Below, in pieces: positions 6,268 through 46,190 of a DNA stretch of 62,546 nucleotides. The DNA is taken from IMG/VR virus record IMGVR_UViG_3300010158_000072, positions 1 through 62,546 of that record, one strand, 5' to 3'. The notes below the pieces were generated by a model that was not told the DNA's origin, ran no database searches, and was given only the letters and a program-made list of their open reading frames with translations. The first letter of the stretch is position 1. The number at the start of each line of letters is the position of its first letter. Position numbers and translations under genes: made by a program. The stretch comes from a virus.

Positions 6268-8389
6268 ATTGATGATTTTCCATCTTCTGTTTACCAAAAA
6301 ATCTATTCAAGAATGGATTAGTTGCTGAGAGAGGTATGTTTGGTGTGACATTAGTATCACCACCTGCGCTCTTATTCATCACATTATAATCATTCATATT
6401 TGTCTGTAAGATTTGACCTAACTTACCTTTATAACCAGCCGACTCGTCTCCCTCTGGTTCAATCTTAGTTGGTGCTGTTGCAGCAGGTTTTGCTGATGGT
6501 GTACCAAAACCTAAAGAATCTAAAGCTTTCATTATAGAGTCACCTAAACCAGGCGCGCCTGGTTGATCTGCTGGTGTTCCTTGCATTCCTCTAATAGTTT
6601 TACCCATAGCATCGTGACCAGTTTCTGGTTCAATCTTACCAGCATCTATATCAACACGTTTTTGTTCCAGTGGTTTGGTAGCAGCAGAATTAGCTCTATC
6701 TTTATCATCTATACCTTGCATGTTTAACATCGCATCACGCGCAGCATTAGAATCTACGGTGGATGTTATACCTTTTGCATGTGTTGCACCCATAGCATCT
6801 TCATCTTCTTTTTTATATTTTGCTTCCATCATATTGGATGCATTCTGCATATTTGCACCACGAACATCGGCTGCATTCATACCAGTTTCACCACTACCAA
6901 GATTACCCAGCTTCTCAGCGTCTAGTGCCTGCTGTAGAATATCTCCATTTTTGCCTTCATACCCAACATTTGGATCACTATGAAGACCACCACCTCGCCC
7001 TAACATGCGAGGATCAGTATGGTCGCCACCACCACGACCAATAGCGCCGGTTGTTTCACCTGTAGTGTGACCACCACCACGTCCGAACGTAGCCGGATTT
7101 GTCGCGTCTTGAATAGATTTAGCAGCGGCTTTCTTTGCTTCTACTGGTGCACCAGGTGCAGCCGCAATAGCTTTTAAACCAGCAAGTTCTTTTTGTCTCT
7201 GTTGATCCGCAGCAAAGAACATCGCAGTAGCACCAGAATCTCCGTTTCTTTCCATGTCCTGTTGTTGTTGAAACATAGCTTTAGATTTAGCGTGTGGATC
7301 AGGCGGTGCCATTATAGGTGCACCTGTAGTTGCAGCAGGCGCAGTTTCCGCAGGTCTTCTCATTGGTTGTGGTGCAGCCGCCGATTGTCTAGCAGCACCA
7401 AATGCACCGGTCTCACCACCTATTGACATATCTGTTGGCGCAGCTGGCGCTGCTGGAGTTGACGCAGCTGCCTTTGATGGATCGTTAGCATCGCTACCTG
7501 GTGTCTTATATAAATCTTCCGCACTAGCTTCGCGTGTACTAGACCCTGTCGTTCCAGCAGCACTAGTAGAAGCAGCGGCAGGACCCGCACCACCTTCAGG
7601 TGCACCAGATCCACTTTTTGCTTTCGAACCAGCAGCCTCAGCAAATGCACCAGTTTCACCAGACATTGACATATCGGTTAATTGTGCTCCCTGTGGTGCA
7701 CCTATTGGTGGTTGAGCTTTATTATATGATGCCATTGCGCCATCAATTTCAGATTGATCTGGTTTTTCATTTTTAAATTGCTTCCATAATTTATACAATT
7801 CAATAGCATCACCGATTGATAATGCAAGACCAATCGCAACGCCAATCCACCCAATACCCGTAGCAGCAAGAATTGCCATTGTTGCTAACTTTTTACCGAT
7901 TTTACCGAGTAATAGTGGCGCAGCAATTTTTAAAAATGAAATGAATGCGTCCCATGTGGAATCGCCACTCGAAGGAATAGCGTCCGCTGCCGCAGCTGGT
8001 GCCGCAGCACCTAATGCAGCACCACTGATAGTAGCACCAGCACCACCGGTAAGCGATGGTGCTATAGCAGCTAGACTTCTGGTAAACTCTGTACGAGACG
8101 CAGCCAGTTCTTTATTCAATGTTCTAAAACGGTCTGTCATATCTCTGTCAACCTTAGCAACAGTCTTTAGAACGCTTGCGATGCTTTTCATAATCTCGTT
8201 GGATACTTTTTGCAATTGCGTTAGTTGAATATTCAAACGCGACATAGAGTCCGCAAGGTCTCCCATTGAACTCTTGTTAGTCAATAGCGACGATGATGCT
8301 TTCTGCATATTACTATCAGCAGACTTGGTACTAAATGTTATTGCTGGTCTTTCAAATGGTGTACCAGTTACGAGTTTTGAAATAGCCAT
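6266..8389 (-). CDS. Long low-complexity tail protein with hydrophobic segment (tape-measure-like), 707 aa
   Basis: Residues 43-108 are a heptad-like helix (ADSMSRLNIQLTQLQKVSNE...). Residues 148-198 are strongly hydrophobic (KIAAPLLLGKIG, AATGIGWIGVAIGLALSIG). The rest is Ala/Gly/Pro-rich with internal repeats: DMSMSGETGAF and DMSIGGETGAF, three GRGGG blocks, and GYEGKNGDILQQ versus GYKGKLGQILQT. It is the last gene of the minus-strand tail operon and starts by 1-nt TAATG overlap with the 794-aa gene. Helical N-terminus, membrane-like segment and position after the gp26-type gene suggest a tail-lumen or tape-measure component. No catalytic domain is seen. The function is inferred from context only. 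Confidence 0.75.
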   Translation of the reverse strand: MAISKLVTGTPFERPAITFSTKSADSNMQKASSSLLTNKSSMGDLADSMSRLNIQLTQLQKVSNEIMKSIASVLKTVAKVDRDMTDRFRTLNKELAASRTEFTRSLAAIAPSLTGGAGATISGAALGAAAPAAAADAIPSSGDSTWDAFISFLKIAAPLLLGKIGKKLATMAILAATGIGWIGVAIGLALSIGDAIELYKLWKQFKNEKPDQSEIDGAMASYNKAQPPIGAPQGAQLTDMSMSGETGAFAEAAGSKAKSGSGAPEGGAGPAAASTSAAGTTGSSTREASAEDLYKTPGSDANDPSKAAASTPAAPAAPTDMSIGGETGAFGAARQSAAAPQPMRRPAETAPAATTGAPIMAPPDPHAKSKAMFQQQQDMERNGDSGATAMFFAADQQRQKELAGLKAIAAAPGAPVEAKKAAAKSIQDATNPATFGRGGGHTTGETTGAIGRGGGDHTDPRMLGRGGGLHSDPNVGYEGKNGDILQQALDAEKLGNLGSGETGMNAADVRGANMQNASNMMEAKYKKEDEDAMGATHAKGITSTVDSNAARDAMLNMQGIDDKDRANSAATKPLEQKRVDIDAGKIEPETGHDAMGKTIRGMQGTPADQPGAPGLGDSIMKALDSLGFGTPSAKPAATAPTKIEPEGDESAGYKGKLGQILQTNMNDYNVMNKSAGGDTNVTPNIPLSATNPFLNRFFGKQKMENHQ

Positions 8390-10773
8390 TAAAATAACCT
8401 TCTAAGAGCAGAACCAATTTGTGCGCCAATCATAAATGGTGACAGCATTGCTTCTGGGCGATATGTTGGTCCTGCCATCTGTTGAAATATATTAGTTCTA
8501 ATATCATTTGTGACGGTTCTATTGATAATGTTTGTATCAACTGGTGGACACGCACACGCACGATTCACAGCATAATCTTGTGATGCCGCACCAAATCCTC
8601 CACCTGCACCACCACCAGGCGCACCTGCGGGACCACCAGGGACTGAAGATGTACCAGAACGATCTATGGAAGCAGAACCACCTTCACCAGCACCCATAGA
8701 AAAGTGCATAGCATCTTTTGATGAACGCCAGTTGCCACCCCAACCTAACCCATACTTGGCAGCTATCGCACCAACATTAGGTGGCATATCTGTTTGTAAT
8801 CTACCATCTTTCAAATGCGGATTAGCTGATGGATTAATGTCAATCGCGGCACCTAACGAATGATAACTCTTCGTATTTGTTCCTGCAATATTACGATTAG
8901 CATATCCACCAATACTCTTAATCTTGTATCCACTTTTTTCTAGCTCATCAACAAACCCTTTGAAATTGCTTGCATACTGAGCGGCAACTGTATATTCTAT
9001 ACCACCTGGAGTTTTTAGCTTAACCATTCCAGGAATAGTAGACGCACCATTTCCTAAACTCGCAAGTGAAGTCTGCACTTGTTGCTGAGATGGTGCACCT
9101 GTTGTATCTAATGGCCGAACAGTACCAACCTGCTGAATAGGTGCAACACTAAATTTCTGATTAAATGCTGCTACTTTTCCTTCTAGCTCTTTTTTCTTTG
9201 CCTCATTAGCTTCACCGAGTCTAGCACCAGGACCTTTTCTTGCTGCAAGATCGTTTATGTTTTTTAACATCGTTACATTGGCTTGATGCGTTGCAGCCTC
9301 TTCTGGTGTTGCAGAAGGCCTACGTTCTGGTGCACCTGTAGTCGCGGCTGCTGGTGTTGATGCGGTAGTTGGACCACCAGATGGTGCAGCTGGTGTTGTT
9401 TGTTGAGCAGCAGCAGTTTGAGTGCCATTTTTAGGAACTTTAGGGTCGATGCCCATACCACGAATTGTATTGGATGTGCTTGTTACATACGACATCCAAT
9501 CATTATTATAACCTTGTGCATATCTAGGCGTTTTTCCATAATTTTGAAGCATCATCAATGCTTCTTCAGCAGTCTTTGCATCTGCATATTTTGGTGCCCA
9601 TTTTTTAACACGAAATGCAACAGCTTCATCAATAGATTCAAAACTTCTAAAAAATTTACTACCGCCACCAGGGTCTCTTGGCGTAGCTATTCTTACCCCC
9701 GGTTCTCTACCCTCTACTCCGGTTTGACCAAACGGGTTATTTTTACCCGTCATATGTTTACCCCAACCAGATTCAATAGCCCATTGTGCAGCTACAACTT
9801 CTGGAAATGGATCTCCAGCTTTTTTAGCAGATTCCATAATTTGATTAAAACCAGCTTTACCCGTTGGTCTATCCCCTGCTTCTCCCGCACTAGCACCAGA
9901 AGAACCTAAAGGAACCGGTGCTGCTTGTGGCCCTGACCCACCACCAGGTGCACCGCTTGGACTCGTTGCAATCAAAGCAGCGCCGCCAGCAATTGCTGCG
10001 CCTGCTACCGCAAGACCTATACCTACTCTCGTATTTTTAGCAGATCGAGATTGCTGCATTCTCTGCGCTCGCGCAAGAACTGCGGTGCTTCGCGAAGCTT
10101 TGAGTGATTTACGCCCAGCACCTTTACGCCCTGGTTTAGGCGCTACAGAACCACCAGCTTGTGTTGGTGCTTTTGCACCAGTTAGCGTCTCAATGACTTT
10201 ATCTTGAAACTCTTGGTTATTTTGAATCATGGTACGGATGACAGTTTCATTTTGCTCTGTCATCTTTTGAACAACGCCACTCATCTGTTCAAATAGTTTT
10301 GGATATGACTCCATTATCTTCTGATTGGTGGTAATCAGATTGGTAGCGATAGATACGTTTCGATTGAATTGCTTGATGACCTTACTAGGTACACCTGTTG
10401 CTTTAGTTGCGGCCTTTATGCCTGGTGCTTTTGGCATTGCAGCAGCAATTGCTTCACGTTTTTCTTGCGGTGGAAAATATGCAGCAATCTTATCTGGCGC
10501 TGGTTTGCCTTGATCGTCAAGGATAGAACCATCTGGTGCATAGTAGTATTTGGTATTCTTTAATACGCCAGCAATTTGAGCGTTATTCTTCTTTCGCTTT
10601 TTAGGTGCTGCTATCACAACAGCAGCTTCTTCAACTGGAGCAGGCGCAGCAAACATCGCGGAAATTCGCGCAGACGCGGGAATGCCGTTCTCGTCCACAA
10701 CCGTACCATCACTCTTGTAATAGTAATCGGTGTTTCCTAAACTGCCTGCTACTGGTCCTGGCTTTTTAGCCAT
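8389..10773 (-). CDS. Tail-associated peptidoglycan hydrolase: glucosaminidase plus M15 peptidase (tape-measure candidate)
   Basis: The 794-aa protein has several modules. Residues 10-42 and 68-100 are two copies of a short repeat (NTDYYYKSDGTVVDENG / NTKYYYAPDGSILDDQG). Residues about 128-198 form a long helix. Residues 248-270 are a hydrophobic Ala/Gly segment. Residues about 308-440 are a GH73/FlgJ-like glucosaminidase with the catalytic-type Glu334 in AIESGWGKH. Residues about 585-695 are an M15 (VanY-type) peptidase with SYHSLGAAIDIN and DAMHF, giving zinc ligands H638, D645 and H690 and acid/base D687. It could cut both glycan and peptide bonds of the cell wall during DNA injection. In T4 the gp5 lysozyme does this job, and the gp5 homologues here lack lysozyme. 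It sits directly after the gp26-type gene and its putative frameshift extension. Confidence 0.85.
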   Translation of the reverse strand: MAKKPGPVAGSLGNTDYYYKSDGTVVDENGIPASARISAMFAAPAPVEEAAVVIAAPKKRKKNNAQIAGVLKNTKYYYAPDGSILDDQGKPAPDKIAAYFPPQEKREAIAAAMPKAPGIKAATKATGVPSKVIKQFNRNVSIATNLITTNQKIMESYPKLFEQMSGVVQKMTEQNETVIRTMIQNNQEFQDKVIETLTGAKAPTQAGGSVAPKPGRKGAGRKSLKASRSTAVLARAQRMQQSRSAKNTRVGIGLAVAGAAIAGGAALIATSPSGAPGGGSGPQAAPVPLGSSGASAGEAGDRPTGKAGFNQIMESAKKAGDPFPEVVAAQWAIESGWGKHMTGKNNPFGQTGVEGREPGVRIATPRDPGGGSKFFRSFESIDEAVAFRVKKWAPKYADAKTAEEALMMLQNYGKTPRYAQGYNNDWMSYVTSTSNTIRGMGIDPKVPKNGTQTAAAQQTTPAAPSGGPTTASTPAAATTGAPERRPSATPEEAATHQANVTMLKNINDLAARKGPGARLGEANEAKKKELEGKVAAFNQKFSVAPIQQVGTVRPLDTTGAPSQQQVQTSLASLGNGASTIPGMVKLKTPGGIEYTVAAQYASNFKGFVDELEKSGYKIKSIGGYANRNIAGTNTKSYHSLGAAIDINPSANPHLKDGRLQTDMPPNVGAIAAKYGLGWGGNWRSSKDAMHFSMGAGEGGSASIDRSGTSSVPGGPAGAPGGGAGGGFGAASQDYAVNRACACPPVDTNIINRTVTNDIRTNIFQQMAGPTYRPEAMLSPFMIGAQIGSALRRLF

Positions 10774-36458: not shown

Positions 36459-37745
36459 ATGTTCACATTTCTAATGGCAAGACCAACTAAGGTTGTTAAT
36501 TTCAATAGCTCTACGAACAACGTGGATCTATATAATTCATCGAGTGCGCCTGCGTACCCGCTGAACTTGCTATGCTTTATCAATAGTAACATTGGATCGA
36601 CTTCTCCTTCGACTCCTGCATTCAAAACAGGAACAGGTTGGAAAGCTGGTACATTTCTTTATGTTAAAAATGCTGCTACTATCACAGGTGGTACAGGTAC
36701 TGCGGGTACACCGGGAAGTACAGGTACTTCGGGTAATATAGGAACATCAGGAACTACGGGCGCAGCAGGAAATCCGGGCGCAGCAGGAAACGCTGGTGCA
36801 GCAGGAAATGCTGGATCGAACGGCGTTGGTGGTAATGGCGGACAGGGTGCACCATATAGCGGGATTAACGCAGGAGCTAATGGTGGTGGTGGATCTCCTG
36901 GGGCTACTGGTAACGCAGCTGGTGTACCTAATAATGGCGCAGCGGGCGGCACAGGTGTTACTGGTAATGCGGGCGGAACAGGTAATGCGGGAGGGCCTGG
37001 TGGTGCCGGCAATAACGGCGGCACAGGCGGTATTGCATTTCAAATTGATTCGGTCGCAGGACTAATAAGTGTTATCGAAAATACAACCACATTTACTGGT
37101 GGCACCGGCGGTACATTAGGACCAGCAGGACCGGGAGGTCCAGGAGGACCCGGCGGCGTTGGTGGATCAGGCGGGGTCGGTGGACCAGGAGGTGCGGGGG
37201 GACCAGCAGCAAGCGGTGGAACTGGTGGAACTGGCGGCGGTGGCGGTGGTGGTGGCGGTCGATCACGAGCTGGAGGAAAAGCAGATCCACCATATACAGG
37301 TGCTGGTGGTGGAGGTGGTGCAGGATCGACTGGTGGAAATGGTGGTGCAGCTGGAGTTTATCCTGGTCATATCACTTTTCCAGCCGGAGCTGCTGGAACA
37401 GCAAATGCTGGTGGACTTGGCGGTGATGGTGGTGCATGGGGTACTGGTGGTGGATTAGGTAGCGCTGGACTAGCTGCATATAGCGGCGGCGCCCAGATTT
37501 TCGCGGGTTCAACTGCCGGAAGCGGTGGTGGTGCGGGCGGTGCAGGTAGCTCTGGAACTAGTTACCCAGCAGGCAATAACGGCGCTACCGGACCAACCGG
37601 GGCGACGGGCGCAACGGGACCCACGGGTGCAACGGGACCAGCAGGGGCAGCGGGATCAGCTGGCGCGCAGGGAAGCGCGGTACTTGGTAATGCGTATGTG
37701 ACAAGTTGGATTAACACAGGAACAAGAAACGGACCAGTAGGATGA
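36459..37745 (+). CDS. Glycine-rich (polyglycine-type) tail fibre adhesin
   Basis: The first ~75 residues (MARPTKVVNFNSSTNNVDLY, NSNIGSTSPSTPAFKTGTGW) resemble the start of glycine-rich fibre tip proteins. From residue ~80 the sequence is dominated by G-x-G, GGTG, GNAG and GPGG motifs, ending with a collagen-like GATGPTGATGP stretch. Such Gly-rich proteins form polyglycine-II bundles in the gp38-type adhesins of T-even phages. Either ATG 36459 or 36474 could be the start. It sits downstream of a fibre gene, consistent with a receptor-binding tip. Confidence 0.75.
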   Translation: MFTFLMARPTKVVNFNSSTNNVDLYNSSSAPAYPLNLLCFINSNIGSTSPSTPAFKTGTGWKAGTFLYVKNAATITGGTGTAGTPGSTGTSGNIGTSGTTGAAGNPGAAGNAGAAGNAGSNGVGGNGGQGAPYSGINAGANGGGGSPGATGNAAGVPNNGAAGGTGVTGNAGGTGNAGGPGGAGNNGGTGGIAFQIDSVAGLISVIENTTTFTGGTGGTLGPAGPGGPGGPGGVGGSGGVGGPGGAGGPAASGGTGGTGGGGGGGGGRSRAGGKADPPYTGAGGGGGAGSTGGNGGAAGVYPGHITFPAGAAGTANAGGLGGDGGAWGTGGGLGSAGLAAYSGGAQIFAGSTAGSGGGAGGAGSSGTSYPAGNNGATGPTGATGATGPTGATGPAGAAGSAGAQGSAVLGNAYVTSWINTGTRNGPVG

Positions 37746-38179
37746 ACATTCATTACAAAATCATTGAAGTATGGCCTAATGACCATTTGTTCGTCGTTAG
37801 GTATTACACTGACAATCTGAACGAAGAAATGTTGATTTCAGCAAACGATTACAATCGTCGTGAAGATGGTTCGCCTATGCGCTGCCGTACAGACGTTGCG
37901 ATTGATATGCCTATTCCTGCATTAGAAGGTAAAGAGCTAGAGAGTTTAATTCTATATAATTCTCCTATCTCATTTCTTCGTAAGATGGAAGACGTATTGA
38001 ATCCTGATATTGATACATCAATGAGCGGTATTATTGATATGATTAATAAGCCAGTAACTAAAAGTACTACAGAACTTCTTGCTAAGAAGGCTGACGTACT
38101 ATCGGATGATGATATCAAGAACCTTATCGAGTCTCTATCGAAGGACAACTTTACCAACAAATCATCTAACTCAAAGTAA
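37742..38179 (+). CDS. Fibre-linked conserved protein, 145 aa, unknown function
   Basis: The start overlaps the adhesin stop (ATGA). The protein contains FVVRYYTDNLNEEMLI, MRCRTDVAIDMPIPALEGKELES and a Ser/Lys-rich helical end. Similar small proteins lie next to fibre genes in T4-like phages. It may be a chaperone or a minor fibre component, but no motif proves either. It is the last clear tail gene before the accessory island. Confidence 0.65.
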   Translation: MNIHYKIIEVWPNDHLFVVRYYTDNLNEEMLISANDYNRREDGSPMRCRTDVAIDMPIPALEGKELESLILYNSPISFLRKMEDVLNPDIDTSMSGIIDMINKPVTKSTTELLAKKADVLSDDDIKNLIESLSKDNFTNKSSNSK

Positions 38180-38194
38180 AGGTGTGTACGTCTG

Positions 38195-39253
38195 ATGATG
38201 TTTTATTATGACGATAAAAAGAACGTCTATCGTACACAAACTGACGCAATCAAGTCAGCCAAATTTTGTCATTTCTATTACCACGACGATGTTTTCAGTA
38301 AGGTCGATTGGAAAACAGAACCTACTGAAACGCTTGAACAGATATATCGCGAACGCGCACAACAAATTCGTGACCAATATGAGTATGTGATTCTTTGCTA
38401 TTCTGGTGGGTACGATTCGACAAACATTTTGGAATCGTTCTACTATAACAATATTCACATAGATGAGATATTGCTTGTTGGAGCATTCTCGCAAGATTCT
38501 AGGTATGGCACCGATGAAAATCATAACGGTGATATATACCACAATGCTTTTCCAACCCTCAGAAGCATGAATTTGCCTAATACCAAAATCACTGTAGCAG
38601 ATTACACTGACCATTTTAATGATCCAAATAATTTCACACTTATCAAAAAGTATGGTAATGAGTGGACAAATCATATCGGTGGATTTAAAAGCGTTCACAA
38701 TCTATTTTGGTACGACCTCAAAAAATTTGTTGGTAAAAACAATAACAAGAACACATGCTATATCATGGGTTCTGATAAACCAGGTTATGAATTTGAGGAA
38801 AAAGCTATACGCTTTAATGATTTGTCGGTAAATGATTATGGTGCAAATTACCAAGACGAAAATTTCACACGAATCAATTTCTACAATGGTACCGATGATG
38901 TGGTTATCAAGCTTATGGTAAAGCAAGGGCATGTTGTTATGAAATTGGACGACATTTTTTTCAAGATGTACGAAGAGCAAGAAAAGAATGCCCACCCATT
39001 ACTCAATCGAGAACTTGCTTATTGGAATAAAACAAAACGCATAAACGAGATTATATACAATCTAAAAGCACCGATGAAATTTGAATCAACCAAGTCGATG
39101 TATAATACACTCAGTGCCAGAGATATGTTCATGTTAAAAAGCCAAAATAGCGAGATGTATCGGATGTTCTTAGAAGGCATGAAAAACCTATCATCGTTTA
39201 GTCACATTTACAAAAAGTATTGCTTCTGGTCACAACCATACTATCTAACATGA
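38195..39253 (+). CDS. PP-loop ATPase family protein (copy 1)
   Basis: Residues 70-76 are SGGYDST, the PP-loop (SGGxDS) that binds ATP and releases pyrophosphate while adenylating a substrate. It follows the strand YVILCY. The upstream part (YDDK, YHDDVFSKVDW, RAQQIRDQYEYV) and the C-terminal KKYCFWSQPYYLT match a second island gene at 41388-42590, so the two are paralogues. PP-loop enzymes include asparagine synthase, QueC, TilS and sulfurtransferases. The substrate here is unknown. The 352-aa gene is coupled by ATGA overlap to the hydroxylase gene. Confidence 0.82.
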   Translation: MMFYYDDKKNVYRTQTDAIKSAKFCHFYYHDDVFSKVDWKTEPTETLEQIYRERAQQIRDQYEYVILCYSGGYDSTNILESFYYNNIHIDEILLVGAFSQDSRYGTDENHNGDIYHNAFPTLRSMNLPNTKITVADYTDHFNDPNNFTLIKKYGNEWTNHIGGFKSVHNLFWYDLKKFVGKNNNKNTCYIMGSDKPGYEFEEKAIRFNDLSVNDYGANYQDENFTRINFYNGTDDVVIKLMVKQGHVVMKLDDIFFKMYEEQEKNAHPLLNRELAYWNKTKRINEIIYNLKAPMKFESTKSMYNTLSARDMFMLKSQNSEMYRMFLEGMKNLSSFSHIYKKYCFWSQPYYLT

Positions 39254-39717
39254 GCTACGTTCTCGTCTTTCTTCTATGGACTTTCGTTGTCTATTGGGCG
39301 CATCGTGCGGCCCATGTGATTCCTGTTGTGCGTAAATTCCATATGGATCATCACGCGCAGGTAACCGACCAGACAATTCAAGGGTTAAACTGGAAGAATG
39401 CGTTTCTCTTTTTTGATACCTGGAATAGCACCATAGATCAGTGGTTGACAGAAGTGATTCCAACGATTATAATATCTTTAATCACTGGGCATTGGTGGTT
39501 GCTCATTGCGTACTACATCTGGGCTGGTTTTATCCAAGAAGCTGTCGAGCATAATAAACGCATCAATCTCTACCCATTTCTAACAAGTGGTAGATGGCAT
39601 CTAATTCATCACGAATATGCGACAAAGAATTATGGTGTATTCGTGCCTATTTGGGACTTAGTTTTTGGTACATGGAAAGGCTTAGATGGCAACGGAAAAC
39701 AATTGGCTCCGAAGTAA
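39250..39717 (+). CDS. Fatty acid hydroxylase/sterol desaturase-type membrane di-iron protein
   Basis: I chose ATG 39250 because it overlaps the upstream stop (ATGA). The 155-aa protein has the His clusters of the superfamily: H18-x3-H22 (HRAAH), H31-x2-HH35 (HMDHH), H101 in EAVEHNKR, and H117-x2-HH121 (HLIHH). Hydrophobic segments lie at residues 2-17 and 65-97. These enzymes hydroxylate or desaturate lipids in the membrane using two irons and oxygen. It is shorter than most bacterial members but all His motifs are present. It is flanked by two PP-loop genes in one operon. Confidence 0.82.
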   Translation: MSYVLVFLLWTFVVYWAHRAAHVIPVVRKFHMDHHAQVTDQTIQGLNWKNAFLFFDTWNSTIDQWLTEVIPTIIISLITGHWWLLIAYYIWAGFIQEAVEHNKRINLYPFLTSGRWHLIHHEYATKNYGVFVPIWDLVFGTWKGLDGNGKQLAPK

Positions 39718-40486
39718 TCTATCAGAAAGATTGCTCAATAACTCAACCGATTTTGTGGTACACTTAGACACTAAACCATATAAGGTAATGAGTTTTGACG
39801 ATGCAGCCAATTATACGGCTGACATAATAGCCACTAAATCATCGAAGGTGTTTATCGGATTCAGCGGTGGTATGGATTCCGAGTTCGTGTTCAGACGTAT
39901 GATTGACCGTGGGCACAACGTGATACCTGTAATTGTCAATACACCAATCAACAAATATGAATCTGCTTATGCTTTTCGTGTATGCAAACAATATGGTATT
40001 GAACCTATTGTAATTGACAAAACGCCTACCGAATTGCTTACGATATTCGTTGATGATATTTTTAAAAAACTAAGTGGGTATGGACACAACTCTGTACCAG
40101 GGCTCATTGTAGGGCGATATGCAGAAGATCATGGTGGCATTATGATTATGAGCGAACATATCATTGACGACAACGATGATAAAATGTATGTTGGGGCTAA
40201 TGAATGGGACTTCTATAATGACGTTTTAATTCATAACGATAACACACACTATTTCTTCACATATACACCAGAGCTATGTTGTGCTATGGTAAAAGAAATG
40301 ATAGATGAGACCGTTCAAGATTTCAAATCGAGAGTATACAATATCCCGTGGCGTCCAAAATTTTCATATGATTATGGGTCGGCATATGATCTAGCATTTG
40401 TCCGTATTAGACAGCATCGACTACACACGCCAGACCCTAATCACAATTTTGGCACCAAAGAGCAATTTTTATCATTGTTTGATTGA
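39686..40486 (+). CDS. PP-loop ATPase family protein (third, divergent type)
   Basis: Residues 60-66 are SGGMDSE after the strand VFIGF, a clear PP-loop. A QueC/asparagine-synthase-like pattern follows: VIPVIVNTPINKYESAYAFRVC and YGIEPIVIDKTPTEL. The rest is unlike the two paralogous PP-loop proteins nearby, so it is a separate subfamily. It overlaps the hydroxylase gene by 32 nt. Its 3' end overlaps the opposing Bug-type gene by 15 nt. The substrate is unknown. Confidence 0.78.
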   Translation: MATENNWLRSNLSERLLNNSTDFVVHLDTKPYKVMSFDDAANYTADIIATKSSKVFIGFSGGMDSEFVFRRMIDRGHNVIPVIVNTPINKYESAYAFRVCKQYGIEPIVIDKTPTELLTIFVDDIFKKLSGYGHNSVPGLIVGRYAEDHGGIMIMSEHIIDDNDDKMYVGANEWDFYNDVLIHNDNTHYFFTYTPELCCAMVKEMIDETVQDFKSRVYNIPWRPKFSYDYGSAYDLAFVRIRQHRLHTPDPNHNFGTKEQFLSLFD

Positions 40487-41398
40487 GTCTTCATATTTCT
40501 TGACCAATTGCTTTTGTCTTGCAATTTCGGTTCGAAGAAACTGTTCGTTGTTATTACACTCGAATACCAATTTCAATTTGGCAATAACGTCGCGTACGGC
40601 ATCTGACGCGCAAGCTTCGTGTACTGATTTTTTAATCTCGTCAATGAACTTAGCATTTACTTTAGGTGCATAGAGAAGTAGTGAAGATGCGTAATTGAAG
40701 TCTTTAATGCCCAATTCAAGTCCAGTCGGCACATTTGGATATTGAGAATTCCTATTGGGCAATGAGATAGCCAACAATTTTAGACCAGGTGTGTCGATAG
40801 GATTTTGAACTGAGTAATCTACTTCACCCATAAGAATACTTTTGGTAATTTCTCCTGGTGTTTTGTACTGAATCATTTTGACATTATTGATATCATACTG
40901 CTTGCGAAAGATTGCATCAAGAAGTTTTGGTGAAATAGCTTGCACTGTGGCTCCATTAAACACCTCCTTCTTTTCCTTCATATATTTAACAAATTGGTCT
41001 AACGAATCTATCTTCAAATCAGGAGAAACCATTATAGCGTTTGGCACCAAAGCGATAAGTTCAATCGGAATAAAATCGGCATCGCGATCAATTGTCGAAT
41101 TGTATATGATTGGATTGAGTGTGAAATTGGAAATTGTACCAGATACAATAGTGTTTGTACCTAATTTGGCTTCGGCTAATGCTTTACCGTCAGCAGCTTC
41201 TCCTCCAGAACCAGGAATAGTGCCTAATCTAAAATCATATTTTTCATCAAGCTTTTTGTTCAACTCGGTAATGAGTGTCGCTGTAACAAAAGCTGTTGGG
41301 TCGTTAGCAGGAAATCTGGTATACACGTTTATGCGTTCTTCAGCACATACACCAAATGTTGCAAGAGAAAAACAAATCAGTAGTAGTTTACGAAGCAT
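40472..41398 (-). CDS. Secreted TctC/Bug-family periplasmic binding protein (first)
   Basis: A signal peptide is visible (MLRKLLLICFSLATFGVCA, likely cut before EERINVY). The mature 289-residue part follows the Bug/TctC pattern: IPGSGGEAADGKALAEA, PNAIMVSPDLKIDSLDQFVKY and VPTGLELGIKDFNY. Such proteins bind carboxylates for tripartite tricarboxylate transporters. The phage version would be exported by the host. A chance acquisition seems unlikely, because a second member lies nearby. Its start overlaps the PP-loop gene by 11 nt. Confidence 0.8.
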   Translation of the reverse strand: MLRKLLLICFSLATFGVCAEERINVYTRFPANDPTAFVTATLITELNKKLDEKYDFRLGTIPGSGGEAADGKALAEAKLGTNTIVSGTISNFTLNPIIYNSTIDRDADFIPIELIALVPNAIMVSPDLKIDSLDQFVKYMKEKKEVFNGATVQAISPKLLDAIFRKQYDINNVKMIQYKTPGEITKSILMGEVDYSVQNPIDTPGLKLLAISLPNRNSQYPNVPTGLELGIKDFNYASSLLLYAPKVNAKFIDEIKKSVHEACASDAVRDVIAKLKLVFECNNNEQFLRTEIARQKQLVKKYEDSIKQ

Positions 41399-42590
41399 GA
41401 TTTAACTCCAATTTTCCGATAAGGTAAGGTTGTGATCTTAACATTGAGTAGAATTGATATTTTTTATTTATCTTTTCAAATCGTTTTTCTTTTGATTCGC
41501 GATACTCTTTCAAAAACCCTTCAGTCGTATGAGTTCCAACTACAGTCTCATACAGTTTAAATTCTGGGTTTTTTATCGTTGGTTTAGGTCCAGCATACGT
41601 TTGTGGATTCCAATCTGGATATATCATCGAACTAAAACTTCTTTCCAGCATAATAGCTGAGGAATGAATAGGTTTTACCGAGTTATGATTTTTAAGCTCT
41701 TCTCTACTTTGTGTAAAAAATTCGTAGTATTTTCTATCGGTTTCTAGTCGCTTTTTAATGATATGGGATTGCTTGATTGGAATCAAAGGCATATCTCTTG
41801 ACCAAAAAAAATCTTCTGTAGTATAAGTTGCTGCAAATTCGCGTAGATTGAGCGATGCTGTTGTGACCATTGTTTGGTCAGTAAAATGAAAAAATAAAGA
41901 GTTGTTTTTGATATGCAAAGCAGGTTTTTCCATACCGCGCACGATGCACATAGAGTTTTTGTCTTTTGATCTTTCATAGTTGGTTGTATAAAATAATTGC
42001 CACCATTGATTGTTTGGTCCCATAGATGATGAGATTCGTGGGTATTGATGTTTGATTCTACCATTATTTCCAATGATTGTATATTTGCCTGTTGAAAGCT
42101 GATCGTGCAGAAGATCGGATGCATCAACGATAGTGATTTTTGTTTTTGGACTTAATTCCAACACTTTCTTGAGCATTGGTAAAGCAGCAAGTTCGTACTC
42201 AAGCAAAATTTGAAATTCGTTGTCTCTCAACATATCTGCTCGGTCAAGATTTTTTGTCATTTTATGAAGATTTGCAACTTGGATTTCGTCAATGAATATA
42301 TTGTTTTTTAGAAATGACCATAGAACTTGTGTTGAATCGCTACCACCAGAGAAAGCAAGAACCACATACTTGTACTTGTCTCGTATCTGTTGGGCTCTGA
42401 TTTTGTATAGTAGACCAATATCGAAATCTGGTTCTGCCATCCAATCGCATTTTTCAAACACATCATTATTGTAATAGTATTTAAGTTTTACATCATAATC
42501 TTGACGAATTAGCGCATAATCAAATGCGTCTTCGCGAGTAAAAAATCGTTTGTCGTCGTATACATAAAACCCACAATGCAGATGATTCAT
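41388..42590 (-). CDS. PP-loop ATPase family protein (copy 2)
   Basis: Residues 81-87 are SGGSDST after YVVLAF. The preceding segment (YDDKRFFTREDAFDYA, YYNNDVFEKCDW, RAQQIRDKYKYV) and the end (KKYQFYSMLRSQPYLIG) match the 38195-39253 protein, so the two are paralogues. At 400 aa this one is about 50 residues longer. Like its partner it probably activates a substrate by adenylation. It runs on the minus strand and overlaps the Bug-type gene by 11 nt. Confidence 0.82.
   Translation of the reverse strand: MNHLHCGFYVYDDKRFFTREDAFDYALIRQDYDVKLKYYYNNDVFEKCDWMAEPDFDIGLLYKIRAQQIRDKYKYVVLAFSGGSDSTQVLWSFLKNNIFIDEIQVANLHKMTKNLDRADMLRDNEFQILLEYELAALPMLKKVLELSPKTKITIVDASDLLHDQLSTGKYTIIGNNGRIKHQYPRISSSMGPNNQWWQLFYTTNYERSKDKNSMCIVRGMEKPALHIKNNSLFFHFTDQTMVTTASLNLREFAATYTTEDFFWSRDMPLIPIKQSHIIKKRLETDRKYYEFFTQSREELKNHNSVKPIHSSAIMLERSFSSMIYPDWNPQTYAGPKPTIKNPEFKLYETVVGTHTTEGFLKEYRESKEKRFEKINKKYQFYSMLRSQPYLIGKLELNHAS
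41465..41472 (-). promoter_or_regulatory. Possible intragenic late promoter (GATAAATA, minus strand)
   Basis: The minus strand reads GATAAATAA inside the end of the second PP-loop gene, 67-74 nt upstream of the Bug-type gene start. Position and form agree with the intergenic late promoters. Confidence 0.4.
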
Positions 42591-42633
42591 GTTATATGAT
42601 TTCCTTATCTTGCAATTTCATAGTCTTATATAT

Positions 42634-42641
42634 GATAAATA
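42634..42641 (+). promoter_or_regulatory. Late promoter (GATAAATAG) before the 148-aa island gene
   Basis: GATAAATAG lies in the 78-bp divergent gap, 28-35 nt upstream of ATG 42669. AGGGAGA forms the ribosome site. It fits the NATAAATAG form. Confidence 0.7.
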
Positions 42642-42668
42642 GAATAAAGTCGAATAGGGAGAATTTTC

Positions 42669-43115
42669 ATGACCGACGCACCGGTAAAACTTGTATGGAT
42701 AATCACTGGCTTGGTTGATTATCATTGGAACGACATATATTTTCCGATAGATTCGCCAAATGCGCATGGTGTTGAATATGATGCTAGGGATGAGCTGCAA
42801 CGCATCGACCGTCGGGAAGGCTATTCAAAGGTCAATTTTGATCATGCGTTAATTCGTCAAAATAGAGAAACTATTGCACCAGAATTATTTGAAGGTTTTG
42901 AAGGTTGGACTAGAAGATATGCAGACGACAATACCAATTTAACCGTTGAAATTTATTTTCAAAATGCAAACTTAGCGATGGCTTACAACCAAAAAGTAAT
43001 TGAAGTCCGCGATAAACTGGAAGCAATTGAATTGAAGCCTAAGATTAATAAATACCAATTTTATTGGGCAATCCTTAACAGAAAAACAGGACAATTGTAT
43101 CTACAAAACGAGTGA
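42669..43115 (+). CDS. Unknown island protein, 148 aa
   Basis: The ATG follows AGGGAGA and a late promoter. The product starts MTDAPVKLVWIITGLVDYHW, has RDELQRIDRREGYSKV, and ends in a helix plus KYQFYWAILNRKTGQLYLQN. I do not recognise the family. It is the only plus-strand gene between two minus-strand blocks of the island, and it converges with a 2OG oxygenase 7 nt away. Confidence 0.65.
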   Translation: MTDAPVKLVWIITGLVDYHWNDIYFPIDSPNAHGVEYDARDELQRIDRREGYSKVNFDHALIRQNRETIAPELFEGFEGWTRRYADDNTNLTVEIYFQNANLAMAYNQKVIEVRDKLEAIELKPKINKYQFYWAILNRKTGQLYLQNE

Positions 43116-43122
43116 AACGATA

Positions 43123-43743
43123 TCATTGGAACTTTGGACCAAGCACCCATACGACAATAGATAAGCGTCTACCTTTAGTTACTGGCGCAACCCGATGGAT
43201 CAAAAAGGAAGGGAATAGAACAGCCCTTCCTTTTACTTTTGGTACTGTAATAGGATCATTTTCTTTACCGTCGTTAATTTGAAATTCACCACCCTCATAA
43301 TCATCATTTAACATCATAGTGAGTGATAGTTTGCGCGGTTCAATATCTAAGTTTCCTTTCGAATCACCAAGCGCCATATCCATATGCCAATCATATCGTC
43401 CTTCTCTGGTTGAATCATATGTTGTGTATTGAAATGTTGCGTAACCATTCAATTCATAACCATAATACATTTCATTGATTGACTGAATAATAAAATTCAA
43501 TCTATCAAATATCCACGCAGTTTCTGGTGTTCTGTTGTGAAATGCAATTTGTGATATTCTATGCTTTTCAACTTCAATCGGATCTGAAGATTCCATAATT
43601 GTGCTTTGTTGAACGCCTTGTGCATCACAATATTCAATGATAGCTTGGAGTTCTTCGTCGGTAAATGCGCCGTCCCAATAAGCCCAAGGTTCTGTCACTT
43701 TGGTTCGTTTATGCGGATCATTATAAATCGTTGTGTGCTTCAT
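43123..43743 (-). CDS. 2OG-Fe(II) oxygenase (prolyl-4-hydroxylase/PKHD-like)
   Basis: The 206-aa protein has the double-stranded beta-helix core of the superfamily. H120 and D122 in DWHMD and H183 in FLIHRVAPV bind iron. R192/R193 in KGRRLSIVVW binds 2-oxoglutarate. The GGEF turn and VKGRAVLFPSF are typical. These enzymes couple oxidation of a substrate to decarboxylation of 2-oxoglutarate. Related genes are common in aquatic T4-like phages but their targets are mostly unknown. Its start overlaps the stop of the next oxygenase. Confidence 0.88.
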   Translation of the reverse strand: MKHTTIYNDPHKRTKVTEPWAYWDGAFTDEELQAIIEYCDAQGVQQSTIMESSDPIEVEKHRISQIAFHNRTPETAWIFDRLNFIIQSINEMYYGYELNGYATFQYTTYDSTREGRYDWHMDMALGDSKGNLDIEPRKLSLTMMLNDDYEGGEFQINDGKENDPITVPKVKGRAVLFPSFLIHRVAPVTKGRRLSIVVWVLGPKFQ

Positions 43744-44423
43744 TAAAAGGTTCTCCAGTTACTTACGGGTTGCACACCCAATGGTTTTGCTGCTTTCTCT
43801 TTATACGTCATCAGAATATCGGCAGCAAGACATATTCGCATCTGATCTAAATTATTTGGCGTAAAACACCCAGTTTCCATCTGCTCTGATTGCCCTACTG
43901 TGTCGTGCGGTACGTTTGATGGAAAAACAAATAGCTGCCCTTCTTTCGGTTCTAGTTGCCATGTGTATGCATTGAATGCGTCCCAATGTGATGGGTTATT
44001 AAATTTGATGCATCCAGGAAATGGTTCATATCTATGCTCATAATTATAGAAGCGAATTGGCTTTGAGAAATCTTTTGGTATGTTAATGTAGTATGTAAAC
44101 GACATGTGAGCGTCACCATGACTATGCATAGGCGTCTGTCTGTTCTTGGTAATGTTCATCCAAGTTTTGACTAGATTAAATTCAAATACGTTTGGATCAA
44201 CGTAGAGTCTCGCAACGTATTGTCTAACCGAGTCTACAGCAAATTTGAATAGTGGTTCAAATGCAGGTTCGTGGTGAAGATTGACATGCCCAGTGTATTC
44301 ATTCGAGAATCCATCTGGTGACATATAATCGAAAATCTTGTCGTAGAAAACTTGCTTGAAATTGTCTTTGTCTGGATATTCAAATTCAGCTAGAAGTGTT
44401 GGAAATAAAATATGTTCTTTCAT
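43743..44423 (-). CDS. Putative 2OG-Fe(II) oxygenase (second type)
   Basis: The 226-aa protein resembles the Pfam family 2OG-FeII_Oxy_5. KTWMNITKNRQTPMHSHGD carries H102-x-D104, SFTYYINIP is the next strand, GQLFVFPSNVPHDTV supplies H173, and MRICLAADIL gives R196. The start LFPTLLAEFEYPD is also typical. It differs from the adjacent oxygenase, so the pair probably acts on different substrates or steps. It is 1 nt upstream-coupled to the smaller oxygenase and follows the Bug-type gene. Confidence 0.83.
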   Translation of the reverse strand: MKEHILFPTLLAEFEYPDKDNFKQVFYDKIFDYMSPDGFSNEYTGHVNLHHEPAFEPLFKFAVDSVRQYVARLYVDPNVFEFNLVKTWMNITKNRQTPMHSHGDAHMSFTYYINIPKDFSKPIRFYNYEHRYEPFPGCIKFNNPSHWDAFNAYTWQLEPKEGQLFVFPSNVPHDTVGQSEQMETGCFTPNNLDQMRICLAADILMTYKEKAAKPLGVQPVSNWRTF

Positions 44424-44424
44424 A

Positions 44425-45387
44425 TCACTTCACCTTATAAATCTGTTTGAGACTATTGAGCGTTTCTATACCTACTGGAGTTTTTATCATGGTTTCCATA
44501 TCAGCACCGCTGATTGCATTGATATCTATGTTTGCACGGCGAGCGTCTTCCACATATTCAGCATCTACCATTACTTTTGAGAACGCATTGCGTAGTTCAT
44601 CTATGCGTGATTTTGGCACGCCAGGTGGTGCTACGAATGGGCGCAACATTATGAACTGGGATTCAAAAGCATGAAGGAGCTTTCTGTCTTTATCGTCTGT
44701 TATATATTCAGCCAGTGCTGGAACTTCCTTATATTCTGGTAGACGGGCCGTACCGTTGCCAAACTGGAGCGTTGGATAGATGCCGCTGCCTGACTGTAAC
44801 CAGTTGGGCTTTTGCGTTTTGATACCAATCAAGCTATAGATAACCGCATCCACTTCCTTGCGCTCAAGCGCGAGACGGTTAGCACCGGTCGTTGGATAAC
44901 CACCGACAATCTTGAAATTGGTGCCAAGCATTCTGTTGACAAACAAAGCCATGTTGCCTGATGTGGCACCCTCAGCACCTACAACGAAGTCTGACCGAAA
45001 CTTCGGTTCATTGGCCCATAGAATAACAGCATCCTTGCGGCCGTCTGCTACTGATCCAATCCAGTTGAAATGGTTAGGGTCAAACTGAACTCCCTCACCA
45101 CCTAATAGCCCTACAAACGGAATCTCTTTATAGACGATGCCGATAACGCTACCATCTCTCGGCGCAATATTGTATAGGTAATTGGCTGCAACTAAGCTCG
45201 CAGCGCCTGGCATGGATTGGATAGTTATAGTAGGATTGTCTGGTAAGTATTTACCGAGATGCCTGGATAGAATCCGAGCGTTGATATTATAACTATCGTC
45301 ATTGGATGGAGTGATTATTTTTAGTTCAGACGCCGCAGCCGCAAGCGAAATGAAGCCAATAAAGAGCATTACAATCAAACGAATCAT
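44425..45387 (-). CDS. Secreted TctC/Bug-family periplasmic binding protein (second)
   Basis: A signal peptide (MIRLIVMLFIGFISLAAAA, cut before SELKII) precedes a classical Bug/TctC body of about 300 residues. Family blocks are ITIQSMPGAASLVAANYLY, NIAPRDGSVIGIVYKE, WANEPKFRSDFVVGAEGATS and FVAPPGVPKSRIDELRNAF. In Proteobacteria these bind di- or tricarboxylates and related acids for TTT transporters. The membrane subunits TctA/TctB are not in the window, so the phage would depend on host ones. By eye its codons look more GC-rich than the adjacent oxygenases. It is the first gene of the minus block and is divergent from gp13. Confidence 0.88.
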   Translation of the reverse strand: MIRLIVMLFIGFISLAAAASELKIITPSNDDSYNINARILSRHLGKYLPDNPTITIQSMPGAASLVAANYLYNIAPRDGSVIGIVYKEIPFVGLLGGEGVQFDPNHFNWIGSVADGRKDAVILWANEPKFRSDFVVGAEGATSGNMALFVNRMLGTNFKIVGGYPTTGANRLALERKEVDAVIYSLIGIKTQKPNWLQSGSGIYPTLQFGNGTARLPEYKEVPALAEYITDDKDRKLLHAFESQFIMLRPFVAPPGVPKSRIDELRNAFSKVMVDAEYVEDARRANIDINAISGADMETMIKTPVGIETLNSLKQIYKVK

Positions 45388-45415
45388 ATCACTATATAGA
45401 CTAAATAGTCAAGAA

Positions 45416-45446: not shown

Positions 45447-46190
45447 ATGGCTATTCCAGCATCAAGACAGGAATTCAAAGACTATATCCTGCGCCGCCTC
45501 GGAGCGCCAGTTATTGATATCAATGTGGATGACGAGCAGGTTGAGGATCGTATCGACGACGCTATTGCGAAATACCGCGATTACCACTATGATGGCACTG
45601 AACATGTTCTGTATAAGCACATAGTTACGCCTACCGACATTACCAATCGCTATCTTACACTCCCAGAAAGCATTATCGGCGTAACCCGTATCTTTGATCT
45701 CGGCGATAGCTATAGCACGACCAGTATGTTCAATGTGCGATATCAGCTTCACCTGAACGAACTATTCAATATTACCAGCGTATCGGTAGCACCATATGTT
45801 ATGGCTATGCGCCATATTGAGACGCTAGAAGAAATCTTCGTCGGTAAGAAACCACTTAGATTTAATCGCCACACCAATACGCTTCATATCGACATGGCAT
45901 GGGCTACTGACGTACAGCCAGGATATACGATTATCGTGGATGGATATGCAAGTTTGGACCCAAACACATATACCGACGTGTGGAATGATTCGTGGCTAAA
46001 GCAGTACGCGACCGCGCTTGTGAAGCGCCAGTGGGGTGAGAATCTAAAGCTATATGAAGGTATGCAGCTTCCTGGTGGTATCACATTCAACGGGCAGAAG
46101 ATTTGGGAAGAAGCAAACGACATGATAACAACGATGGAAACGTCACTCATTAACGATTATAGCTTGCCCGTTACGGATATGATCGGCTAA
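45447..46190 (+). CDS. gp13: Neck protein gp13
   Basis: The 247-aa product starts ASRQEFKDYILRRLGAPVIDIN and VDDEQVEDRIDDAIAKYRDY, the usual start of gp13. It continues with SIIGVTRIFDLGD and the end WLKQYATALVKRQWGENLK, PGGITFNGQKIWEEA. T4 gp13 has 309 residues. It forms the neck between portal and tail with gp14. Start of the T4-ordered series 13 to 20. Confidence 0.94.
   Translation: MAIPASRQEFKDYILRRLGAPVIDINVDDEQVEDRIDDAIAKYRDYHYDGTEHVLYKHIVTPTDITNRYLTLPESIIGVTRIFDLGDSYSTTSMFNVRYQLHLNELFNITSVSVAPYVMAMRHIETLEEIFVGKKPLRFNRHTNTLHIDMAWATDVQPGYTIIVDGYASLDPNTYTDVWNDSWLKQYATALVKRQWGENLKLYEGMQLPGGITFNGQKIWEEANDMITTMETSLINDYSLPVTDMIG

Follow-up and report, generated by a model that had tools for sequence, protein, structure and literature searches.

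The 62,546-bp IMG/VR record IMGVR_UViG_3300010158_000072, from an uncultured T4-like phage, was analyzed over its whole length, which we call the window, and carries at 38195..45387 an island of nine cargo genes between a fibre block with the small gene g34 on the left and the neck gene gp13 on the right. We propose that this island is a modular phage-borne cassette that captures exogenous carboxylic acids and tailors them, a reading in which we place about even confidence. A first-pass annotation made from the DNA letters had placed there three PP-loop ATPases (PPA, PPB, PPC), a membrane di-iron hydroxylase (FAH), two 2-oxoglutarate (2OG)-Fe(II) oxygenases (OxyA, OxyB), two Bug solute-binding proteins (BugA, BugB) and one unassigned gene (unk40), and had counted three strand switches. 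We recovered all nine genes at these positions and on these strands (Table 1); the strand order is + + + - - + - - -, followed by gp13 on +, with 3 switches inside the island.

The genes recur together outside the window. Five IMG/VR scans with single window proteins, followed by a survey of open reading frames (ORFs) with profiles, yielded 69 distinct contigs that carry one or more of the eight families, and 31 of them hold at least five. The co-occurrence analysis that the first-pass annotation had suggested was thereby carried out, and dozens of contigs show the genes linked, arranged as three conserved operons. Usually, g34 is followed by PPA, FAH, PPB and at least one PPC-BugA pair, then by OxyA, OxyB and BugB on the opposite strand and finally by gp13. 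The operons PPA-FAH-PPB, PPC-BugA and BugB-OxyB-OxyA are tightly packed with overlapping frames: in the 69-contig set FAH is directly followed by PPB in 34 of 36 cases, PPC by BugA in 28 of 33, OxyB by OxyA in 26 of 29 (overlaps mostly 1 or 4 bp), PPA by FAH in 27 of 46 (overlaps mostly 4 bp) and BugB by OxyB in 19 of 37. The first operon unites PP-loop enzymes with a hydroxylase, the second a PP-loop enzyme with a Bug protein and the third a Bug protein with oxygenases. That every operon combines two of these three classes is our main argument for a single pathway served by all the genes. The island genes are under strong purifying selection, with ratios of nonsynonymous to synonymous substitutions of 0.035-0.087 for six of them in comparison with contig L066 and, where estimable, of 0.23-0.28 for PPC and BugA in comparison with the more distant L029. 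Since independent contigs of 106,948 bp and 154,689 bp carry the same order, the nine-gene arrangement is no assembly artefact; the 154,689-bp contig has one additional PPC-BugA pair.

A second survey with PPB and PPC profiles, of which the PPC profile found at least 493 relatives, contributed 145 new loci, part of them from contigs already found. Within the new distinct contigs, PPC has a Bug gene at a distance of at most two genes in 67 of 96 cases, or in 41 of 56 once sequences are clustered at 80% identity, compared with a background of 3 Bug genes among 1260 genes more than three genes distant from any PP-loop gene. The slot between PPA and PPB, occupied by FAH in the window's lineage, holds a Rieske oxygenase in 7 second-survey loci and is empty in 8. 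Relatives add genes for radical SAM, ATP-grasp, amidoligase and carbamoyltransferase proteins and a tryptophan-halogenase-like gene. A small-molecule pathway fits this picture, since relatives add enzymes of a similar kind together with TctA and TctB permease genes, and to this extent the suggestion of the first-pass annotation that the set makes or modifies a small molecule has held up.

PPC and BugA are inherited and exchanged as a block. The distances of 26 adjacent PPC-BugA pairs are correlated with r = 0.84 (Mantel p = 5e-4), while the distance correlations of PPC or BugA with other cassette or backbone genes are lower (0.26-0.69). Genomes with two units carry very different ones (PPC 36-43% and BugA 28-30% identical). 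For 7 of 8 such units a single other phage holds the closest outside relative of PPC and of BugA alike, although 4 of the 7 concordant units come from one pair of near-identical contigs. Compared with the window, L029 has gp13 and BugB that are 97% identical, but PPC of 39-48% and BugA of 32-50% identity. It is from the correlation, the concordant relatives and this mismatch that we derive exchange of the block. Upstream of one PPC-BugA pair lies a gene for a UvdE-type UV endonuclease (L007:4543-5577).

BugA matches TctC (E = 5.4e-15). The match of the window's BugB to TctC is insignificant (E = 0.18), 16 of its 27 aligned homologues match TctC, and a sequence search of the PDB gave nothing for BugB. 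Signal-peptide-like N-termini were called by a simple in-house hydropathy rule, not by SignalP, in both window proteins and in 23/25 and 25/27 members of the BugA and BugB families, respectively; the same rule found none in the PP-loop or 2OG enzymes. From these N-termini BugA and BugB are predicted to be exported to the periplasm. Complete TctC-TctB-TctA sets stand beside PPC, PPB, Rieske, PPA and ATP-grasp genes in L061/L062, and TctA adjoins PPC in L063 and, by sequence match, in L309; with the L062 TctA as query only its own two contigs were returned. A second family of carboxylate binders, DctP, accounts for 13 of 32 unlabelled neighbours of PPC that were scanned. DctP-type (TRAP) binders (phrog_31178) are found near PPC at L286:5173-6135 and in L280, L287, L292, L301, L309, L316, L319, L323, L324 and L327. 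Eleven DctP-type binders near PPC have no signal peptide and start approximately at the mature N-terminus, with at most a short in-frame stretch upstream; solute-binders that stay in the cytosol would be unusual for phages.

The first-pass annotation had also considered that the Bug proteins supply 2-oxoglutarate, the co-substrate of the oxygenases. FAH and Rieske enzymes use no 2-oxoglutarate, and Bug-PPC units recur beside either of them. Because one genome can hold two BugA proteins that are only ~29% identical, several Bug ligands are probable. We found no specific support for 2-oxoglutarate supply and rejected this part of the suggestion.

FAH belongs to the fatty acid hydroxylase superfamily; it matches PF04116 (8.6e-17) and, weakly, an ornithine lipid hydroxylase. 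In an alignment of 27 proteins the His boxes of the di-iron site, H18/H22, H31/H34/H35, H101 and H117/H120/H121, are invariant or conserved at ≥90%. The most likely start is ATG at 39250 rather than TTG at 39220, because the Met is nearly invariant and the frame then overlaps the PPA stop by 4 bp. The sole FAH match in phage records is a fatty acid hydroxylase of greater length; the records concerned are labelled Acinetobacter phage MD-2021a, and its context there looks bacterial. A perfect sigma-70 consensus (TTGACA, 17, TATAAT) lies within the FAH gene on the + strand (window 39445-39473); sigma-70 sites overall are at chance level (32 compared with 30.5 expected).

OxyA belongs to 2OG-FeII_Oxy_3 (PF13640, 5.9e-16) and phrog_61, and OxyB to 2OG-FeII_Oxy_5 (PF13759, 9e-11); the families phrog_61/phrog_81 cover both proteins. 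Their iron ligands are conserved in the alignments, H.D and HR (distal H) in OxyA and H.H.D and H in OxyB. At L063:1061-4727 OxyA and OxyB are interleaved on one strand with two collagen-like fibre genes. In view of this interleaving and of its occurrence alone at the fibre in other loci, OxyA may have a role at the fibre separate from the pathway. In a check for defence systems OxyA alone matched PADLOC, as a generic CRISPR-associated 2OG model, and a known defence system was rejected on this ground.

The PP-loop motifs of the window are SGGYDS, SGGMDS and SGGSDS, and Pfam matches to all three proteins are weak. SGGxDS is conserved in alignments of PPA, PPB and PPC relatives (36, 35 and 34 proteins); in that of PPA, S70, G72, D74 and S75 are invariant and G71 is conserved at ≥90%. 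PPA and PPC are paralogues with 33% identity and PPB is distinct. PPB and PPC were modelled with AlphaFold (pLDDT 95.2 and 89.7), and the PPB model fits the PP-loop fold, the PPC model more weakly. Nearest to the PPB model are the solved folds of carbapenam synthetase (CarA), LarE and TtuA, with E down to 5.8e-6 and low identities of ~11-22% to the listed matches; strong fold matches of PPC were only to uncharacterised viral proteins. Sequence searches of the PDB gave nothing for PPA, weak PP-loop matches for PPB and no PP-loop match for PPC.

The PP-loop family appears to be virus-specific. A pattern search of genome contigs found no cellular relative of PPA, and 99 Bdellovibrionia genomes contained no relative of PPC. 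Cellular relatives of PPB were only distant in our limited searches: PPB-like genes (E ≤ 1e-8) were detected in 14 of the 144 genomes from the class to which a Bdellovibrionaceae metagenome-assembled genome belongs. Among 78 neighbouring proteins scanned there, the commonest were Asp_Arg_Hydrox (5), FA_desaturase (4), GNAT (4) and PhyH (3), counts that stand without a background rate for those genomes; these neighbourhoods echo the phage sets. Cellular PPB-like loci are L148 and, in Bdellovibrionia, L167-L182. For PPA, PPB, PPC and BugA limited searches gave no close cellular homologue of the kind that would mark a host-acquired auxiliary gene, and a closer relative may exist. Neither for these four proteins nor for BugB did 50,697 phage records yield a protein homologue, and isolated phages gave no DNA match to the window.

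We propose the following pathway. BugA and BugB would reach the periplasm of the host by export and there bind organic carboxylates, and the ligand would enter through a host TctAB-type permease, which some relatives encode themselves. In the cytosol PPC, matched in substrate to its Bug partner, would adenylate the carboxylate with ATP under release of pyrophosphate and join the activated carboxylate to an amine, ammonia or a sulfur donor, similar to carbapenam synthetase or LarE-type enzymes. PPA, the hydroxylase (FAH here, Rieske elsewhere) and PPB would perform a second activation and a hydroxylation, and OxyA and OxyB may hydroxylate further. A swap of PPC-BugA would change the acid used. 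The product might feed the infection, act as a signal or modify a cell component. We further speculate, with considerable doubt, that exchangeable units of binder and matched PP-loop ligase feed a common hydroxylation module, each phage population thereby making a small molecule of its own out of an environmental compound; this would be virus-specific biosynthesis rather than borrowed host metabolism.

Several points weigh against the proposed cassette. The genes are observed to be linked, paired and conserved, and FAH to be replaced by Rieske, whereas substrate, step order, product and activity, as well as binding, import and adenylation, are inferred. Family scans including Pfam found no TctA or TctB in the island of the window, where a tripartite system is thus incomplete, and import would depend on a host permease. 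As the DctP-type neighbours of PPC lack signal peptides, some solute-binders of these phages may have a function other than import. OxyA is often found without the remaining cassette genes. PPC matches the folds of GMP synthetase and LarE only weakly (best E 8.7e-4), and to assign it amide or thio chemistry is therefore guesswork based on its superfamily. The contigs are partial and interrelated and the counts therefore not independent; clustering at 80% keeps the Bug-PPC association, and some kinship remains. Because the family profiles were built from the same set, the local enrichment may be somewhat overstated.

The Bug proteins could also serve nutrient scavenging only, boosting carboxylate uptake while the enzymes feed the acid into host metabolism. 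The predicted exported solute-binders and the TctABC genes of some relatives would suit such a role, and precedents exist: cyanophage PstS is a phage-encoded exported phosphate-binding protein described as an auxiliary metabolic gene (PMC10976474), and tctA was reported on a contig of SUP05 phages (PMC4164917). We consider scavenging unlikely, however, as two or three PP-loop enzymes and several oxygenases are not obviously needed for catabolism, the island of the window holds no gene of central metabolism, and the amidoligase, carbamoyltransferase and halogenase-like genes of relatives look like tailoring. The location of the cassette directly after a collagen-like fibre gene and g34 suggests another function, namely that oxygenases and ligases hydroxylate or decorate the neighbouring fibre for host recognition, by analogy with collagen hydroxylases, which hydroxylate collagen. 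The interleaved genes in L063 and the presence of OxyA in most collagen-bearing loci, also without the rest, agree with this. Yet PPC-BugA-FAH-PPB sets stand in tRNA arrays in L005 and L006, and L005, L006, L061 and L062, with 13 to 24 tRNA genes, show no labelled fibre or neck gene on the stretch examined of these partial contigs; linkage to the fibre is thus not constant, and the cassette is not tied to it. Modification of the fibre or virion would moreover leave the exported Bug proteins without a role, and the proportion of Pro at the Y-position of G-x-y triplets, judged by eye, is not consistently higher where OxyA and OxyB are present, so we regard it as quite improbable.

Membership of FAH in a membrane enzyme family with lipid substrates (PF04116, and the weak ornithine lipid hydroxylase match) would be compatible with hydroxylation of a membrane lipid and alteration of an envelope component by the other enzymes, for example as a superinfection block. 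The 7 loci with Rieske in place of FAH speak against such an envelope change, as Rieske enzymes are, to our knowledge, not known to act on lipids; family scans found no lipid or glycan transferase in the island of the window either, and we give this explanation little credence. A chance gathering of unrelated genes at a permissive site before gp13 is very improbable and largely refuted. Among 28 gp13-anchored loci with at least 5.5 kb upstream, 20 carry at least one cassette gene (four of them OxyA only) and 8 carry none in the upstream stretch examined. The site is empty in Sinorhizobium phage phiN3, with 13 bp between the fibre assembly gene and gp13, and is taken up by one or two unrelated ORFs in Caulobacter phage Cr30 and Stenotrophomonas phage DLP6. 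The first-pass annotation had itself named homologues that are always single and unlinked, or random cargo, as outcomes that would speak against the island; linkage contradicts the former, while occupation of the site by unrelated ORFs or its emptiness does lend something to the latter. Fixed pairs with overlapping frames, the PPC-BugA correlation and the recurrence of these sets elsewhere in genomes contradict a hotspot, and random cargo was rejected due to operon conservation and these independent sites. A capture-and-tailor cassette is the explanation that we prefer.

Around the island, the window encodes a T4-like structural module in which baseplate, gp13, gp14, terminase and tail sheath families were detected. 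The collagen-like fibre gene is linked to the cassette in most tail-site relatives, and g34 lies immediately 5' of PPA in 28 of 46 cases. By its position g34 is a possible fibre assembly protein; the phiN3 gene at the equivalent position is annotated as tail fiber assembly and has no sequence match to g34. Homologues of unk40 were found with the first profile in 8 of 69 contigs. The divergent gap between BugB and gp13 holds the palindrome GACTAAATAGTC (window 45400-45411). Candidate late promoters amount to five exact TATAAATA sites, all on the + strand, compared with 4.4 expected by chance, and none lies inside the island. A minus-strand protein of 794 residues (window 8389-10773) has endolysin-type matches in two separate stretches.

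Table 1 Genes of the island and its flanking landmarks in the 62,546-bp window
Feature	Position	Strand	Remarks
Collagen-like fibre gene	36459..37745	+	G-x-y repeats; landmark just upstream, outside the cassette
g34, small conserved gene	37742..38179	+	Landmark between fibre and cassette
PPA, PP-loop ATPase	38195..39253	+	Operon 1, first gene; PPC paralogue
FAH, predicted membrane di-iron hydroxylase, fatty acid hydroxylase superfamily	39250..39717	+	Operon 1; PF04116
PPB, second-type PP-loop ATPase	39686..40486	+	Operon 1
BugA, predicted exported TctC/Bug solute-binding protein	40472..41398	-	Operon 2; TctC
PPC, PP-loop ATPase	41388..42590	-	Operon 2, BugA partner
unk40	42669..43115	+	Between operons 2 and 3; no notable family match
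OxyA, 2OG-Fe(II) oxygenase	43123..43743	-	Operon 3; PF13640
OxyB, 2OG-Fe(II) oxygenase	43743..44423	-	Operon 3; PF13759
BugB, predicted exported Bug-type solute-binding protein	44425..45387	-	Operon 3, first gene
gp13, T4-like neck protein	45447..46190	+	Right boundary landmark; phrog_211 head-tail adaptor 1.8e-41

Compared with known systems, the Bug proteins resemble cyanophage PstS as phage-encoded, predicted exported solute-binders thought to use a host permease, but they belong to the TctC/Bug family, are paired gene by gene with PP-loop enzymes and are part of a multi-enzyme cassette. Bug/TctC receptors also serve bacterial tripartite tricarboxylate transporters; examples are Bordetella Bug27/Bug69 (PMC11452294). 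BugA is likewise a predicted exported binder of the TctC family and L061/L062 hold all three components, whereas the window has the binder without TctA/TctB, and the best listed plasmid matches of BugA are ~24-29% identical. With CarA, beta-lactam synthetase, LarE, TtuA and GMP synthetase the PP-loop proteins of the cassette have the PP-loop motif and fold in common; in contrast to these amide- and sulfur-forming enzymes they carry no glutaminase domain, and identity is low. The 2OG-Fe(II) oxygenases of T4-like cyanophages (phrog_61, phrog_81) are of the same families as OxyA and OxyB, and OxyB is 22-29% identical to cyanophage and other marine virus proteins. In cyanophage P-HM1, however, replication genes surround the oxygenase relative, and no PP-loop or Bug protein is annotated in its vicinity. 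A limited keyword search of the literature, mostly of titles and abstract openings, gave no description of an association of PP-loop, Bug and oxygenase genes.

In most descriptions, an auxiliary gene of a phage is a single copy of a host gene. In the present case a PP-loop family that is large and apparently specific to viruses has genetic links to predicted exported carboxylate-binders and several unrelated oxygenases, in phages without a counterpart among the 50,697 phage records searched. If our proposal is true, phages would run their own multi-step chemistry on imported acids, and the paired units would point to the substrate, as the ligand of a Bug protein should equal the substrate of the neighbouring enzyme.

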